The translations under genes were made by a program, and so were the position numbers. Shown one piece after another: positions 22,118 to 35,104 of a stretch of DNA of 64,000 bases (its first letter is position 1; the number at the start of each line of letters is the position of its first letter). Origin of the DNA: Vallicoccus soli (lineage in GTDB: Bacteria; Actinomycetota; Actinomycetes; Motilibacterales; Motilibacteraceae); the NCBI RefSeq assembly GCF_003594885.1, contig NZ_QZEZ01000001.1, forward strand, positions 248,001 through 312,000, read 5' to 3'. The notes under the pieces are model-generated. The model had not been told where the DNA came from, did not search any database, and worked only from the letters and a program-made list of their open reading frames with translations.

Positions 22118-22999
22118 GTGACGGTTGACGAGAGCGCCCCCACCCCGCGGGCGGCCGGACGGACCCCGCTGCCGCGGCACGGCGCCACCGGCCTCAGCGC
22201 CCCGACCGGCGACGACGTGCGGCAGGCCCTGCGGCGGCTGCCCGGCTGCGACGCCGAGGCCGTGTGGGACCGGGTCTGCGACCGGGCGCGGGTCCCCCGG
22301 GGCGCGTACCTGCTCGAGCTCGAGGAGCTGGACCGCCTCGCGGCGGCGCTGCTGCAGGAGCCGGGCGAGGTCGGCCTCGCGGGCCGCGCCCTGGCCGTGC
22401 GCGCGGGGACCTACCGCGCGCTGGCCGGGCGGGGGGACTCCGCGCTGCGGCGCCGCGTGGACTGGGGCCGCGAGGCGCTGGAGCTGCTGCTGCGCAGCCG
22501 CCTGCAGGACGTCGAGCGGCTGCGCGCCGTCGCGCGCCTCGACCCGTTCCGGGCGGAGGTCAGGGACCGGCTCGACCGGGTCTGCCGCGACACCGCGGTC
22601 CAGTTCGGGCAGGACGCCGGCGCGGTGACGTTCGTCCTCGACGGCGCCCAGGCGGTCGCCGGCAGCCACGGCGTGGGCGGGTGGGTGCTCGAGAGCGGCG
22701 GCCTGCCCGTCGAGTGGTCCTTCTGCGCGACGACGGTGCGCACCCGCCGGCCGTACGTGGTCGAGGACGCGACCGAGGACGTGCTGCAGCGCACCCACCC
22801 CCTCGTCGTCGGCCCGGAGGGCCTCCGGTCCTACGCGGGGGCCCCGCTCATCACGGCGGCGGGGCACGTGCTGGGCGCGCTCTGCGTGGTGGGGGGCGCC
22901 GCCCGCGCCGTGTCCGCGCAGGAGGTCGCCGAGCTGCAGTCCCGGGCCGCCGCCCTCGCCGCCGACCTGGAGCGCACGGCGCCCGCCGCGGCCGCCTGA
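22118..22999 (+). CDS. GAF domain sensor protein
   Basis: 293 residues. A helical N-terminal region (about 25-135; DDVRQALRRLPGCDAEAVWD) precedes a single GAF domain (about 140-280) ending SYAGAPLITAAGHVLGALCV, the classic GAF core. It has one Cys in WSFCATT and one in ALCVV. No output domain is visible, so it may act by binding a partner. It lies 111 bp before the chemoreceptor, on the same strand, and may be part of that signalling unit. GTG start with AGGTGGG just before it; the start is moderately certain. Confidence 0.75.
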   Translation: MTVDESAPTPRAAGRTPLPRHGATGLSAPTGDDVRQALRRLPGCDAEAVWDRVCDRARVPRGAYLLELEELDRLAAALLQEPGEVGLAGRALAVRAGTYRALAGRGDSALRRRVDWGREALELLLRSRLQDVERLRAVARLDPFRAEVRDRLDRVCRDTAVQFGQDAGAVTFVLDGAQAVAGSHGVGGWVLESGGLPVEWSFCATTVRTRRPYVVEDATEDVLQRTHPLVVGPEGLRSYAGAPLITAAGHVLGALCVVGGAARAVSAQEVAELQSRAAALAADLERTAPAAAA

Positions 23000-23110
23000 C
23001 CGGCGCCGCCGCCCCGCGCGGCGCACCCGTCCGGCCGCTCAAGCAGGGGGGCCGGACGCCCGAGACCAGCAGTCGGGGGACCCGCCCCCGGACTCCGTGA
23101 GAGGCCCGCC

Positions 23111-25195
23111 ATGCCGCAGACCGTCCCGAGCCCCCGCACCGGCCCCGCCGGCGACGCGCACGCGCGCGCCCTCGCCGCGGCCGTCGACCAGGCGCACGCC
23201 GTCGTCGAGTTCGACGTCGCCGGCATCGTGCAGGCGGCGAACGCGAACTTCCTCGAGGTCATGGGGTACGAGCTGGACGAGGTGGTGGGCCAGCACCACC
23301 GGATGTTCTGCGGTCCGGAGGTCGTGGACGACCCGGCGTACGGCGAGTTCTGGCGGCGCCTCGGCGCCGGCGAGCCGTCGACGGGGGAGGTCCGGCGCCT
23401 CGCGAAGGGCCGCCGGCCGGTGTGGCTGCAGGCGACGTACCAGCCGGTCGTCGAGGACGGGCGGGTCGAGCGGGTCGTCAAGCTCGCCGTCGACGTGACC
23501 CCCGCGAAGCTCACGGCGCTCGAGCACCTGGCCAAGGTCGAGGCGATCGACCGCACCACCGCGGTGGTGGAGTTCGACCTGCAGGGCCGGGTGCTCTCGG
23601 TCAACGCCAACTTCCTGCGCGCGGTGGGCTACGCCGAGGCCGAGGTGCTCGGCAAGCACCACCGGATGTTCTGCGACCCCGCCTACGTCGCCAGCTACGA
23701 GTACGCCGAGCTGTGGGAGCGGCTGAACGCCGGCGAGTTCGTCGCGGGCGAGGTCCGCCGGGTGACCAAGGGCGGGGGCGACCTCTGGCTGCAGGCGACG
23801 TACAACCCCGTCCTGGACCACGAGGGCAAGCCCCGCCGGGTCATCAAGTACGCCACCGACATCACCCGCGCGAAGTCCGAGCAGGCGGACTTCGTGGGCA
23901 AGATCAACGCGCTCGAGCGGTCCCAGGCCGTCATCGAGTTCGACCTCGAGGGCCGCGTGCTCACCGCGAACCGGAACTTCCTCGACGTCATGGGCTACGC
24001 CCTGGCGGAGGTGCAGGGCCGGCACCACCGGACCTTCTGCGACCCCGACTACGCCGCGACGAAGGAGTACACGGACTTCTGGGAGCGCCTCGGCGCCGGG
24101 GAGTACGTCGCCGGGGAGTTCCGCCGGATCGCCAAGGACGGCAGCACGGTCTGGCTGCAGGCCACCTACAGCCCCGTCCTGGACGCCACCGGGCGCCCGT
24201 GCAAGGTCGTGAAGTTCGCGGCCGACGTGACCGCCGAGAAGGTCCGCAGCACCGAGGTGGCCGGCAAGATGGCGGCCGTCGAGCGGGCGCAGGCCGTCAT
24301 CGAGTTCGACCTCGACGGCATCGTGCTCACCGCGAACGACAACTTCCTGCGGACCATGGGCTACTCGCTGCGCGAGGTGGTCGGTCAGCACCACAGCCAC
24401 TTCTGCTCCGAGGACTACACGCGGTCCGAGGAGTACCGCGACTTCTGGCTGCGCCTGGGGCGCGGCGAGCTCATCAGCGGGCGCTTCGACCGGGTGGGCA
24501 AGTACGGCCGCGAGGTCAACATCCGCGCGACGTACACCCCGATCCTCGACACCGCCGGCAACCCCTGCAAGGTCGTCAAGTACGCCTATGACATCTCCTC
24601 GACCGTGCAGCTCGAGCACCGGATCGCGGCGAGCACGACCCGCATGACCGAGCTCGTCAGCAGCCTGTCCGCGGCGATGGGCGACATCGGCGCCAGCTCC
24701 GGGGTGGCGACCGACCTCGCGACGGAGACGCACGCCAACGCCGAGCGGGGCGTCGAGGCGCTGCGGGCGAGCCTCGAGGCCATCGGGCTCATCCAGCGCT
24801 CCTCCCGCTCGATCAGCGAGATCGTCCGCGTCATGGGCGAGATCGCCAACCAGACCAACCTCCTCGCCTTCAACGCCTCCATCGAGGCGGCGCGGGCGGG
24901 CGAGCACGGCCTCGGCTTCTCCATCGTGGCCGGCGAGGTCCGCAAGCTCGCCGAGCGCTCCTCCCAGGCGGCCCAGGAGATCGGCAAGCTCATCGAGGAG
25001 TCCGCGGAGCGCGTCGAGCAGGGGTCGGAGGTGTCCAAGCGCGCCGAGGACGCGTTCGGGCGCATCGCCAGCGGCGTCGCCCGGACCAACGAGGCGATCC
25101 GCGCCATCGCCGAGGCGGCCAGGGTCCAGCAGGAGGCCTCGCGCGAGGTCGACGCCCTCGTCGGCGAGCTCGCCGCCGCGCGGGCCTCGGCCTGA
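23111..25195 (+). CDS. Soluble methyl-accepting chemotaxis protein with four PAS domains
   Basis: 694 residues without any membrane segment. Four PAS-PAC units begin around residues 28, 149, 271 and 393 (spacing 121-122). Each has EFD near its start, GxHHxxFC in the middle, and a WLQATY-like strand (IRATYTP in the last). A helical signalling domain follows (about 510-694); its hairpin tip [20 protein letters not shown] is near 577-596, then [10 protein letters not shown]. There is no obvious CheR-binding C-terminal pentapeptide. It should sense a cytoplasmic cue such as redox state or a ligand and signal through CheW to CheA. The triple-CheW gene starts 4 bp after its stop. ATG with GAGAGG 7 nt upstream. 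Confidence 0.94.
23192..24600 (+). repeat. Four tandem PAS-PAC coding repeats of about 366 bp
   Basis: Inside the chemoreceptor gene. The GAG codon of the EFD motif recurs at 23207, 23570, 23936 and 24302. Copies 2 and 3 look most alike in protein; copy 4 differs most. All keep two adjacent His and a following Cys. Confidence 0.85.
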
Positions 25196-25199
25196 GCCG

Positions 25200-26798
25200 G
25201 TGAGCGAGCGCGCCGGCGGTCCGCCCGCCGAGGACGACGTGTACGGGCTGCTGCGCATCGCCGGCTCCGACGTGGGCCTGCCCCTCGCGGCCCTGCGCGA
25301 GGTCGTGCCCTGCCCGCAGGTGCTCGCGGCGGTCCCCGCCCGGGCGCCGGGGCTCGTGGGCGCCATGGAGCTGCGCGGGCTCGTCGTGCCCGTGGTGGAC
25401 CTCGCGGCGCTGCTCGGCGCTCCCGCGCGCGTCGGGGACGCCGGGGACGGTCCCGAGCGGGTCGTCGTCCTCGCCGCCGCCGACGACCACCTCGTCGGCG
25501 TCCTGGCCGACGAGGTGGTCGGGATCACCCGGCTGCCGGACGAGGAGCTGCTGCCGGTGCGCGCCGCCGCCCTGGACGGCGGGCCCGGGCCGCTCCTGCT
25601 GTCGCACTGGTTCCGGCACCCGGACAGCGGCGCGGTCGTCAGCGTCCTCGACGCGGCGCGGCTGCTGGCGCTCCCCGGCGTGCCCGTGGTGCGCGACCGG
25701 GCCCGGCCGGAGGAGGGCGGAGCCCTGCCGACGGGGGGGACGCCCGCGCCGGGTCTGCCCGGCACCGGTCCGCGGCTGACGCTCACCGTCGTGCGCTGCG
25801 GGGACCACGTCCTCGGCCTCGACGTCGAGCACGTCCACACCACGCTCCCCGGCGCGGAGCCCGAGCCCTCGGTGCTCGCGGGCGGCGCCTGCACCGGGAC
25901 GACGACGTTCAGTGGGCGCGAGGTCCCCGTCGTCGACCCGCTGCAGGTCCTCGGCCTCGGGGCCCGCGCCGGCGTGCCCGCCGGCGCCGGGCTGGTGCTC
26001 GACACGGGGACGGGCTACGTCGTGCTCGCCGTCGACACCCTGCTGGACCTCGCCGAGGTGCCCGCGGAGGACGTCCTGCCGCTCCCGGCGTCGGCGATCG
26101 GCCGCGGGGACCTGGTCCCGGCGCTCGTGGACCTCCCCGGGGCCGGCCAGGCGCTCGTCGTGGACGGGGCCGCGCTGCGGGCCGAGCCGTCGCTGACCGC
26201 CCTGGGCTCCCTCAACACCCAGGTCGACGGGGCGGACGACCCCGCGGTCGCCGGCCTCGACGCCGACGTCGCCGGGCGCGCCGCGGCGGCCCTGGCCGCT
26301 GAGCCGCACCTGTCCTACTCCGCGGGCGCGGACGTGCTGAGCCCCGTCGGGCAGGTCGCCGAGATCCTCCCGCTGCCCGCGGACGTCACGGCCACCGGCG
26401 CGCACCCCGCGCTGCGCGGGGTGCTGGTGCACCGGCGCGCGGCCGTGCCGGTGCTCTGCCTGCCCACCCTGCTGGGGGTCGCCCCGCGCCCGGACCAGGG
26501 CGAGGGGTGCCTCCTGCTCGTCCACGGCGAGCGCGGGCCGGTGGCCTTCGCGATCGACGCGCTCCGGACGATCGTCCACCCCACCTGGCAGGACGAGGAG
26601 CGGCCCAAGGGCACCCCGTCCACACCGGGGGACGTGCTGCGGTGCAGCCCCCTGGCGGTCGTCGAGGAGCCGGCCCAGCTGCTGCCGGTCGTCGACCTGC
26701 TCGGGCTCGCCCGCATGGTGGAGGGCGCCGAGGAGGGGGACGGCGGGGACGGTGCCGCGGCGCCGCCCGGCGCCCCGCTCGCGCGGCTCGCCGGCTGA
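25200..26798 (+). CDS. Triple CheW-domain chemotaxis coupling protein
   Basis: 532 residues holding three CheW-like domains in a row: about 12-165 (YGLLRIAGSDVGLPLAALRE ... GAMELRGLVVPVVDL), 195-345 (LTLTVVRCGDHVLGLDVEHV ... GREVPVVDPL) and 350-515 (LRGVLVHRRAAVPVLCLPTL). CheW normally is one 150-residue domain that ties receptors to CheA; proteins with several can scaffold arrays. The third domain is the most divergent. GTG 25200 follows the receptor stop by 4 bp, so one mRNA is likely. No cheA, cheY, cheR or cheB lies in the window. Ends in an acidic Gly-rich tail. Confidence 0.88.
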   Translation: MSERAGGPPAEDDVYGLLRIAGSDVGLPLAALREVVPCPQVLAAVPARAPGLVGAMELRGLVVPVVDLAALLGAPARVGDAGDGPERVVVLAAADDHLVGVLADEVVGITRLPDEELLPVRAAALDGGPGPLLLSHWFRHPDSGAVVSVLDAARLLALPGVPVVRDRARPEEGGALPTGGTPAPGLPGTGPRLTLTVVRCGDHVLGLDVEHVHTTLPGAEPEPSVLAGGACTGTTTFSGREVPVVDPLQVLGLGARAGVPAGAGLVLDTGTGYVVLAVDTLLDLAEVPAEDVLPLPASAIGRGDLVPALVDLPGAGQALVVDGAALRAEPSLTALGSLNTQVDGADDPAVAGLDADVAGRAAAALAAEPHLSYSAGADVLSPVGQVAEILPLPADVTATGAHPALRGVLVHRRAAVPVLCLPTLLGVAPRPDQGEGCLLLVHGERGPVAFAIDALRTIVHPTWQDEERPKGTPSTPGDVLRCSPLAVVEEPAQLLPVVDLLGLARMVEGAEEGDGGDGAAAPPGAPLARLAG

Positions 26799-31604: not shown

Positions 31605-34600
31605 TGCCTGCAGCCCCGCGCGAGCCCGCCGTCCGCCACGCCGCGCGGGGGGCGTCCTCGCACGTGCCGGTGGCGGTGCTGCAGGTGCCGGCCTTCCGCA
31701 AGCTCTGGGTCTCGCTGACCCTGTCGAGCTTCGGCGACTGGCTCGGCCTGCTCGCCATGACGGCGCTCGCCGCCAGCCTCGCCGACGGGTCGTACCAGCA
31801 GACGAGCCTGGCCGTCGCGGGCGTGTTCATCCTGCGCCTGGCGCCGGCGATCCTGCTCGGCCCGCTCGCCGGCGCCGTCGCCGACCGCTGGGACCGGCGC
31901 AGGACGATGGTGGTCACCGACGTCGTGCGGGGCGCGCTGCTGGCCTCGATCGCGTTCGTCGGGACCCTGTGGTGGCTCTACGTCGCCACGGTCCTCATCG
32001 AGTGCGCGGCGCTCTTCTGGCAGCCGGCCAAGGAGGCGTCGGTCCCCAACATCGTGCCGCGGGACCAGCTCGAGCAGGCCAACCAGGTCAGCCTCCTCGC
32101 GACGTACGGGTCCGCCCCCGTCGCGGCCGGCGCCTTCGCCCTGCTCACCGTGGCGGGCGGCCCGCTCTCGCGCATCGGCGTGGACGCGGTCGACCTCGCC
32201 ATCCTCTTCGACGCGGCGACGTTCCTCGTCGCCGCCCTCGTCATCGCCCGGCTCGACATCCCGGCGCCGCGCGGCGGGCAGGCCGTGGCCCGCGAGAGCG
32301 TGTGGCGCACGGTCGTCGAGGGCTGGCGCTTCGTCGTCGTCACGCCGCTGGTGCGCGGCCTCGTCGTCGGCATGCTCGGCGCCTTCGCCGCCGGCGGCGC
32401 GGTGGTCGGCCTCGCCCGCACCTACGTCGCCAATGTCGGGGCGGGCGACCCCGGGTACGGCGTCCTCTTCGCCGCCGTCTTCCTCGGCCTCGCCGCCGGG
32501 ATGGGGGCGGGCCCCCGGCTCCTGCACGGGCTGAGCCGCCGGCGCCTCTTCGGCCTGGCGATCGCCTGCGCGGGGGTGGCGCTCGTCGTCCTGGGCCTGG
32601 TCCCCGACCTGGTCCTCGCGACCGTCGTCACGCTCCTGCTCGGGCTCATGGCGGGCGTGGCGTGGGTGAGCGGCTACACCCTGCTCGGCCTCGAGGTCGC
32701 CGACGAGGTCCGCGGCCGGACGTTCGCCTTCGTGCAGAGCATGGTGCGGGTGGTCCTCGTCCTCGTGCTGGCCGCGGCGCCGCTGCTGGCGGCGGCCATC
32801 GGGCAGCACGACGTGCGCATCGGCGACCAGGAGCTGTCGTTCACCGGCGCGAGCATCGTCTTCGTCGTCGCGGGCGTGCTGGCCACCGTCCTGGGCGTGA
32901 CCTCGTACCGGCAGATGGACGACCGGCGGGGCCACCCGCTGCTGGCCGACCTCCTGCAGGTCGTGCGGCGCCGCCACCTCGACCCGGAGTCGGTCCGCCA
33001 CGGCGGGCTCGGCGTGTTCGTCGCCCTCGAGGGCGGCGAGGGCGCGGGCAAGTCGACGCAGGCCGAGCGGCTGGCCGAGCGGCTGCGCGCGCGCGGGCTG
33101 GAGGTCGTCGTGACCCGCGAGCCCGGCGGCACCGCCACCGGGCGCCGGCTGCGCGAGCTGCTCCTCGACCCGGCGAGCGAGGGGCTCTCCGAGCGCGCCG
33201 AGGCGCTGCTCTACGCCGCCGACCGCGCCGAGCACGTCGCCCGCGTCGTGCGCCCGGCCCTGGAGCGCGGTGCCGTCGTCATCACCGACCGGTACGTCGA
33301 CTCGTCCCTCGCCTACCAGGGCGGCGGGCGCGAGCTGGCGCGGGACGAGGTGGAGCGGCTCTCCGCCTGGGCCACCGGGGGGCTCGCGCCCACCCTCACC
33401 GTCGTGCTCGACCTGCCCCCGGACGTGGGGCTCGCCCGCGCCGGGCGCACCGGCGCCCCCGACCGGCTCGAAGCGGAGCCGCGCGCGTTCCACGAGCGGG
33501 TGCGCAGCACGTTCCTCGAGCTGGCTGCCCGGCGCCCCGACCGCTACGCCGTCGTCGACGCCGCGCGCCCCGCCGAGGAGGTCCTCGCCGAGGTGGCCGC
33601 GAGGGTCGAGGCCGTGCTGCCGGTTGCCGAGGGCGCCGCGGCTGCGCCGGGCGTGCCCGCCGGCTCCGGCGCGACGGCCGCCGCGGCGGGGGACGACGCC
33701 GGCCCGGGCGCGGCCGGCGCCGGAGGCATCGCGGCCGGGGCCGCGGGCGCTGCCGGCGCCGCGGGCGCTGCCGGCGCCGCCGGTGCTGCCGCGGGCGCCG
33801 CCGCCGCGGCGGACGCGGTCGCGCGGGGCGGCGCGGGTGCGGGCCTGCGGCGCGGGCTCGCCGGGGTGCGCGCCGCTGCGACGCGCACGGTGGCGCGGGG
33901 CGCGCGGACCGGCTCCGGCTCCGGCCCCGCCTCCGGTGGAGCGGCGGACGCCACCGGGGCGTCCGGTGCCACCTCCGCGGGGGGCGCCCCCGGGGCGTCC
34001 GCCGCGCAGGACACGAGCGGGCGGGCTGCCGGCGGCGCCACCGTCGCGCCGGGCACGGCCGCGGCCTCCGCCGCGCCGACCGCGGCGGGTGCGACGGGAG
34101 TGGTCGCGGGAGCGGGCGCGGCGGGAGCGGGCGCGGCGGGAGCGGTCGCGGGGGGAGCGGGTGCCGCGGGCGGGCGGGGCGGGGCCGACGGTCCTCACGC
34201 CGCGGACGGCGCCTCCCTCGCCGACGCGGTCGCCGAGCGCGAGCGCCGGCACCGGCGCGCCGAGAGCGCCCGCCGGGTCGCGGCGCAGGAGCGCAGGGAC
34301 CGGCTGGTCGCCACCCGCGCGCGGATGGTGGCGCGCGAGCGGGCCCGGGAGGCCCGCCGGCGCCAGCGGCTGGCGCAGGACGAGGCCGAGCGCAAGCGGG
34401 CCGAGGAGGCCGCGCGCGCGCTCGCGGAGCAGGAGGCGCGCCGCCGCGAGGCGCAGGACGCCGAGCGCCGTGCGGCGGAGGAGGAGCGCCGCCGGGTCGA
34501 GGCCGAGCGCCGGGCCGTCGAGGAGGCCGCGCGCCGCGAGCGCGAGGAGCGCCGGCGGGCCGAGGAGGAGGAGCGCCGCCGGGTCGAGGCCGAGCGCCGC

Positions 34601-35104
34601 GCGGTCGAGGAGGCCGCCCGGGCCGAGCGCCGCGCCGCCGAGGAGGCCGCCCGCGCGGAGCGCGAGGCCGCTGCCCGGGCGGTGGCCGAGGAGCGCCGCC
34701 GCGAGGAGGAGGCCCGCCGGGCCGAGCAGGAGCGGGCGGCCGCCGCGGAGGCCGCGCGCCGCGCCGCGGAGCGCGCCCGGCGCGAGGAGGAGGAGGCCCG
34801 CCGGCGCGCGGAGCAGGCGGCGCGCTCGGCCGAGCAGGCCCGCCGCGCCGAGGAGGAGGCGCGCCGGCGCGCGACCGTCGGGGAGGCCGCTCCCCGGCAC
34901 GTCCGGGGCGCGCCCGCAGCCGGTCCCGACGACCGCACGGTCGACCTCGCCCGGGTCGAGTCGTCCCGGGCTGAGCCGTCGCGGCTCGCGGGTGCGGCGG
35001 CGCGCCGCCGCCGGCGCCGCCGCAGGGACGACCTCGACGAGACCCTCGTCGACGACCTCTTCAGCCTGGCCGCCGACGACGAGCGCGGGCGGGACGAGCG
35101 GTGA
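31604..35104 (+). CDS. tmk: MFS-like membrane protein fused to thymidylate kinase, with coiled-coil tail
   Basis: 1166 residues in four parts. Residues 1-460: about 12-helix MFS-like domain (AGAVADRWDRRRTMVV). 470-672: dTMP kinase with P-loop GGEGAGKSTQ, REPGGT and TDRYVDSSLAYQGGGR, all intact; it makes dTDP from dTMP. 673-870: Ala/Gly linker built from short DNA repeats. 870-1105: long Glu/Arg/Ala coiled coil. A basic then acidic tail closes it. MFS-TMK fusions are known in actinobacteria (SCO3542, recalled); the length of the linker and coil stands out. holB overlaps its stop by 4 bp, so DNA precursor synthesis and replication genes are coupled. Confidence 0.93.
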   Translation: MPAAPREPAVRHAARGASSHVPVAVLQVPAFRKLWVSLTLSSFGDWLGLLAMTALAASLADGSYQQTSLAVAGVFILRLAPAILLGPLAGAVADRWDRRRTMVVTDVVRGALLASIAFVGTLWWLYVATVLIECAALFWQPAKEASVPNIVPRDQLEQANQVSLLATYGSAPVAAGAFALLTVAGGPLSRIGVDAVDLAILFDAATFLVAALVIARLDIPAPRGGQAVARESVWRTVVEGWRFVVVTPLVRGLVVGMLGAFAAGGAVVGLARTYVANVGAGDPGYGVLFAAVFLGLAAGMGAGPRLLHGLSRRRLFGLAIACAGVALVVLGLVPDLVLATVVTLLLGLMAGVAWVSGYTLLGLEVADEVRGRTFAFVQSMVRVVLVLVLAAAPLLAAAIGQHDVRIGDQELSFTGASIVFVVAGVLATVLGVTSYRQMDDRRGHPLLADLLQVVRRRHLDPESVRHGGLGVFVALEGGEGAGKSTQAERLAERLRARGLEVVVTREPGGTATGRRLRELLLDPASEGLSERAEALLYAADRAEHVARVVRPALERGAVVITDRYVDSSLAYQGGGRELARDEVERLSAWATGGLAPTLTVVLDLPPDVGLARAGRTGAPDRLEAEPRAFHERVRSTFLELAARRPDRYAVVDAARPAEEVLAEVAARVEAVLPVAEGAAAAPGVPAGSGATAAAAGDDAGPGAAGAGGIAAGAAGAAGAAGAAGAAGAAAGAAAAADAVARGGAGAGLRRGLAGVRAAATRTVARGARTGSGSGPASGGAADATGASGATSAGGAPGASAAQDTSGRAAGGATVAPGTAAASAAPTAAGATGVVAGAGAAGAGAAGAVAGGAGAAGGRGGADGPHAADGASLADAVAERERRHRRAESARRVAAQERRDRLVATRARMVARERAREARRRQRLAQDEAERKRAEEAARALAEQEARRREAQDAERRAAEEERRRVEAERRAVEEAARREREERRRAEEEERRRVEAERRAVEEAARAERRAAEEAARAEREAAARAVAEERRREEEARRAEQERAAAAEAARRAAERARREEEEARRRAEQAARSAEQARRAEEEARRRATVGEAAPRHVRGAPAAGPDDRTVDLARVESSRAEPSRLAGAAARRRRRRRRDDLDETLVDDLFSLAADDERGRDER

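Follow-up and report, generated by a model that had tools for sequence, protein, structure and literature searches.

Among described chemotaxis proteins, the closest studied counterpart of the receptor considered here is AerC of Azospirillum brasilense, a soluble protein in which two N-terminal PAS domains are followed by an MCP signalling domain (PMC13401364, PMC10468136). In Aer, a Trp residue stacks on the adenine of FAD, a His lies below the flavin and an Asn contacts the flavin (PMC10468136, PMC9668731); in the AerC cluster of FAD-binding chemoreceptor PAS domains the Trp and the His are conserved and the Asn is not (PMC10468136). BdlA/McpS of Pseudomonas aeruginosa resembles our receptor in the type of its PAS domains, of which two or more stand at the N-terminus, and in its short signalling domain; BdlA, however, has two PAS units, an LALNA hairpin tip and no CheW neighbour. 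Divergent CheW-type scaffolds tied to particular receptors or arrays are represented by FrzB of Myxococcus, which is a single CheW domain, and by a Treponema protein in which CheW is fused to a CheR-like domain (PMC6952110, PMC7666581). How bacteria separate receptor types that share one kinase is an open question.

Here, we describe a locus of Vallicoccus soli that bears on this question. Within the 64-kb stretch of DNA analysed (the window), a gene for a soluble receptor with four PAS units is followed directly by a gene for a protein with three CheW domains in one chain (CheW3). The two genes form a real, recurrent module with an optional GAF-domain partner, and this two-gene unit links a variant receptor tip to an apparently dedicated multivalent CheW in two bacterial phyla. 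CheW variants and soluble receptors are both already known; we found no paper that reports the two stably combined and with a tip variant to match, nor any account of a receptor/triple-CheW unit, in the literature searched, outside which the work of Vass et al. (2022) on CheW architectures lies.

Gene anatomy and predicted sensor properties

An earlier sequence-only reading of the window recognized three forward-strand genes, for a GAF protein, the receptor and CheW3, and open reading frames and Pfam bear this out: the first matches GAF, the second four PAS stretches and MCPsignal, and the third three CheW stretches, with the family score above the cut-off. The GAF gene (22118–22999, + strand, 293 amino acids) encodes an all-helical N-terminal domain (residues 31–162) and a GAF domain (about residues 150–281); a fold search returned ordinary GAF matches only, the best being the GAF domain of DcsBis, and none for the helical domain. 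The receptor gene (23111–25195, + strand, 694 amino acids) encodes the four PAS units and a short MCP signalling domain. No hydrophobic segment reaches the transmembrane threshold, in agreement with the reported lack of a membrane helix, and the domain boundaries confirm the proposed period of 121–122 residues: unit 1 spans 23177–23539 (residues 23–143), unit 2 23537–23905 (residues 143–265), unit 3 23906–24271 (residues 266–387) and unit 4 24272–24619 (residues 388–503), the last being the unit kept beside the signalling domain in orthologues. The receptor stops at 25195 and CheW3 (25200–26798, + strand, 532 amino acids) starts at 25200, so that the gap is 4 bp, as had been noted. The surrounding gene order was likened to that of Streptomyces, a resemblance that we carry over as an assumption. 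Where tmk had been placed, positions 31664–35104 hold an open reading frame of 1146 amino acids with a major-facilitator-like start, possibly a transporter–kinase fusion.

Among solved structures, PAS unit 3 best matches the FAD redox sensors MmoS and Aer (PMC9668731), and most of the nearest PAS structures come from flavin proteins. In the 119 PAS units compared across the family, the Trp corresponding to Aer W70 is invariant (119/119) and the His corresponding to Aer H53 is present in 116, whereas the position of the flavin-contacting Asn (Aer N85) is occupied by Arg in 118. Since the Trp and the His are kept and the Asn is absent, as in the AerC cluster, FAD-based redox sensing is the leading reading, and the PAS units are predicted from these residues to bind FAD. 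The protein also has the AerC-type (PAS_FAD2) organization, being soluble with N-terminal PAS domains and a C-terminal MCP domain in addition to the Trp/His/Asn pattern; this likeness was judged from layout and the published residue pattern. It differs from AerC in having four PAS units instead of two (two to six in the family), an LAFNA tip and a triple-CheW gene downstream. Redox, heme or flavin state had been suggested as the stimulus; residue conservation upholds the flavin and redox part, while heme as cofactor is favoured neither by the PAS residues nor by the nearest structures.

The MCP signalling domain (24626–25192, + strand) belongs to a short class with about 90–100 residues per arm. 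It aligns to Tsr without gaps over about 179 residues and does not reach the outer adaptation region. A methylation motif was found in the transmembrane receptors of the same genome and not in the window receptor, which, without the motif and the adaptation segment and with helices that match inner Tsr only, falls outside the canonical methylated MCPs. Methylation-like motifs are present in some Geodermatophilaceae orthologues, and the receptor of Ruegeria also has one. The post-tip arm comprises about 103 residues, compared with 140 in two transmembrane receptors of this genome. The hairpin tip (24851–24931, + strand, residues 581–607) had been described as normal, which is not quite the case: F587 replaces the usual Leu, and the tip reads LAFNA...GFSIVA instead of the LALNA...GFAVVA of the transmembrane receptors. 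All 32 scored receptors that stand next to CheW3 carry LAFNA, and all 6 scored receptors with the same type of PAS but without that neighbour, BdlA included, carry LALNA, an association that involves few lineages and in which receptors retrieved with an LAFNA query are biased towards LAFNA.

In CheW3, domain 1 spans 25236–25679 (residues 13–160), domain 2 25770–26219 (residues 191–340) and domain 3 26304–26729 (residues 369–510). The predicted structure shows three CheW folds; the linkers between them have low confidence, and the folds take no fixed position relative to one another (pTM 0.50). The closest known structures are those of CheW proteins and of the region of CheA that resembles CheW. 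An LRG-type Arg, which we take to be equivalent to E. coli R62, is conserved in domain 1 (R59; 25 of 25 sequences) and domain 3 (R412; 24 of 25) and absent from domain 2 (0 of 25). A conserved Gly occurs in all three domains and precedes the Arg in domains 1 and 3. Domain 1 is the best conserved and matches ordinary CheW. CheW3 thus shares fold, Pfam match and, in two domains, the Gly/Arg pair with ordinary CheW, and differs from it in carrying three domains with disordered linkers in one chain, one of them without the Arg.

Recurrence of the receptor and CheW3 genes

The sequence-only reading had staked the idea of a dedicated module on the genes being kept together in homologous loci. We scanned public genomes with CheW3 alone as the query; a single sequence gave no match, and an alignment of four sequences recovered the family, yielding 26 usable loci. 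In all 26 a PAS-MCP receptor with two to six PAS units lies directly upstream, at a gap of −8 to +20 bp. The hosts are Blastococcus, Geodermatophilus, Modestobacter, Goekera, Kineococcus, Kineosporia, Quadrisphaera and Nocardioides, together with the betaproteobacterium Zoogloea, and the surroundings of the pair differ between those loci that were read. Pairwise divergences of receptor and CheW3 are correlated (r = 0.93, reached in 0 of 2000 permutations; 0.83 within Actinomycetota). Chance adjacency of the two genes is refuted by the 26/26 count and the correlated divergence. A match in Methanosarcina (L071), with one CheW domain and 26% identity, was set aside. In Modestobacter altitudinis (L059, 9968–11484) the CheW3 frame is broken after about 70 codons, through either a frameshift or a sequencing error.

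More pairs lie on proteobacterial plasmids and megaplasmids, in Caballeronia, Paraburkholderia, Novosphingobium aromaticivorans and Ruegeria; in the plasmid protein search the CheW3 query gave one record only, and the related pairs came from receptor queries. On the megaplasmid of Ruegeria sp. TM1040 (L097, 1935–7562) CheR and CheD genes stand between receptor and CheW3, and in Novosphingobium ES2-1 a CheW gene lies beside an apparent remnant of a receptor reading frame. Altogether, the pair is found at some thirty loci besides the window, in two bacterial phyla, and is nearly always adjacent.

Within the class, full-length CheW3 relatives were found in the window genome and three others among 394 genomes sampled; the family- and order-level samples comprise five genomes only. 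The three others, Blastococcus xanthinilyticus, Nocardioides lianchengensis and N. flavescens, are also represented among the 26 loci. The co-occurrence with cheA and flagellar genes that had been put forward as a check was found: CheA and FlhA are both present in all four carriers, the window genome included, compared with 36/394 and 51/394 genomes overall.

The GAF protein had been proposed as a third member of the module, and as a fixed component it does not stand. Its gene adjoins the pair at 10 of the 27 loci, namely the window, all three from Kineococcus and all six from Nocardioides, a count in which the contig of Quadrisphaera ends before the position could be judged. It does not accompany the pair in Kineosporia, Zoogloea or the loci from Geodermatophilaceae. 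The genome of B. xanthinilyticus (G390) has no full-length copy anywhere. These loci and this genome rule out an obligatory role, and the protein is best called an optional partner. Among the matches listed, full-length relatives including the N-terminal helical domain occur in 3 of the 394 genomes of the class, each of which also carries CheW3, a restriction that is suggestive and involves few lineages. In Caballeronia and Paraburkholderia a GAF-only gene lies divergently upstream of the pair. Relatives of the window GAF protein were also seen no more than about 10 kb from a CheA gene in G369 and G215 (L085/L084), two genomes of one family, which may mean that GAF proteins of this type are more widely associated with che clusters.

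Host chemotaxis genes and a candidate promoter

That CheA, CheB, CheR and CheY are missing from the window fits the genome search. The 4.04 Mb genome of V. soli encodes a single CheA, on contig 7, and one CheB, on contig 15, with CheR and two CheY-like genes adjoining the latter; the sequence-only reading had likewise made its proposal depend on a CheA in the genome. One ordinary CheW gene adjoins that of CheA, seven MCP-domain matches occur genome-wide, and the search for CheA revealed no second che operon. FlhA and other flagellar genes are present, among them a gene for a FliA/WhiG-family sigma factor that scores just under the curated cut-off. Since CheA, CheB, CheR, CheY and flagella are encoded elsewhere in this genome, which is thus equipped to swim, the receptor/CheW3 pair represents an accessory input. 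The host CheA (L007, 13450–15828) ends in two CheW domains, a layout reported mainly for F5-class CheA (PMC10542144).

A candidate flagellar-sigma (FliA/WhiG-type) promoter, CTCAAG-N15-CCCGAG, lies at 23038–23064 on the + strand, about 47 bp before the receptor start. The matrix was trained on the regions upstream of nine other che/flagellar genes of V. soli, whose common motif is CTCA(A/G) followed by GCCGAN 14–15 bases after the first hexamer; we take this motif, also in view of its distribution in the genome, to be the FliA-type consensus. Despite a degenerate −10 element (CCCGAG), the site is the joint best of the window, with 0.0017 such sites expected by chance in 111 bp. Ten orthologues have a site with a chance expectation of 0.04 or less, comparable sites being found in Kineococcus xinjiangensis, Quadrisphaera, Goekera, one Geodermatophilus, one Blastococcus, Kineosporia and several Nocardioides; with the same matrix no clear site was seen upstream in many other Geodermatophilaceae or in Zoogloea. 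On contig 1 (L027, 6178–7703) a site of this type also precedes a gene for a free PAS-like protein followed directly by one for a soluble MCP of 325 amino acids, an arrangement that resembles a split Aer (CetB/CetA-type).

Proposed function and its alternatives

We favour, with a probability of about 0.6, the reading that the pair comprises an AerC-like soluble redox receptor and a dedicated multivalent CheW that feed flagellar chemotaxis through the house CheA. The four tandem FAD-type PAS domains would sense the redox or electron-transport state of the cell and pass the signal to the short, methylation-independent MCP hairpin. CheW3, made from the next gene, would be the dedicated coupling protein for the LAFNA tip, with its three domains on flexible linkers; domains 1 and 3 may contact the variant tip, the CheW-like P5 domain of the sole CheA, or both, and we infer that domain 2, having lost the key Arg, serves as a spacer or ring filler. 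Because it is multivalent, CheW3 could hold several receptor tips and CheA together in one complex, and longer transmembrane receptors would not be needed. The output would run from CheA through CheY to the flagellar motor, as aerotaxis or redox taxis. The module also suggests that motile Actinomycetota may have redox taxis based on soluble receptors. As it consists of two genes, and as the LALNA receptors without CheW3 form a natural set for comparison, it makes the specificity of the receptor–CheW interface testable.

Receptors of different length usually occupy separate arrays (PMC6759762), and since length classes seldom share arrays, this counts against the route assumed for the short receptor to the house CheA. 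The same segregation, taken with the shorter post-tip arm, the multivalency of CheW3 and the finding that Rhodobacter cytoplasmic arrays have their own CheW (PMC3964821), argues for a separate, membrane-free cluster of short receptors in which CheW3 would make up most of the baseplate and few CheA would be recruited. A soluble signalling cluster, which the sequence-only reading had suggested, would fit the data, but we consider it rather unlikely, as the host has one CheA, the genome search showed no second che operon, and AerC joins polar clusters with membrane receptors (PMC13401364). Rather unlikely, too, is that CheW3 serves as a tip-specific single-chain baseplate, which would accept LAFNA only and build a cytoplasmic array insulated from ordinary CheW and longer receptors while sharing the sole CheA. 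By analogy with BdlA, which shares the PAS type and has a similar layout with two PAS units ahead of a short MCP domain, the pair could act outside flagellar taxis, for instance in biofilms, on surfaces or in c-di-GMP control; the ordinary tip of BdlA and its lack of a CheW neighbour, the flagellar genes of the module hosts tested and the candidate flagellar-type promoter make this improbable.

For CheW3 itself, loss of the Arg from domain 2 in 25 of 25 sequences and the precedent of FrzB, a CheW-like protein without kinase binding (PMC6952110), would suit an inhibitory or buffering role, in which CheW3 titrates tips or CheA and does not activate the kinase. With Arg and preceding Gly kept in domains 1 and 3, and domain 1, the best conserved, matching ordinary CheW, such a role appears very improbable. 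We give almost no credence to the idea that the GAF protein, the receptor and CheW3 are neighbours by chance and that CheW3 is a spare CheW paralogue: over half of the loci indeed lack a GAF gene next to the pair, but the receptor and CheW3 stay adjacent in surroundings that differ where they were read, and they diverge in concert.

A distant triple-CheW protein was observed in two sister-genus genomes, G003 (L020, 5538–15090) and G004 (L021), within a second, apparently complete chemosensory operon, in which an MCP with two signalling stretches and no PAS match is followed by CheB-, CheR-, CheY- and CheA-like genes. Like CheW3, it has three CheW domains and adjoins a soluble MCP gene; it differs in its low identity (25–30% per domain), in its position among further che genes and in the PAS-free character of its MCP.
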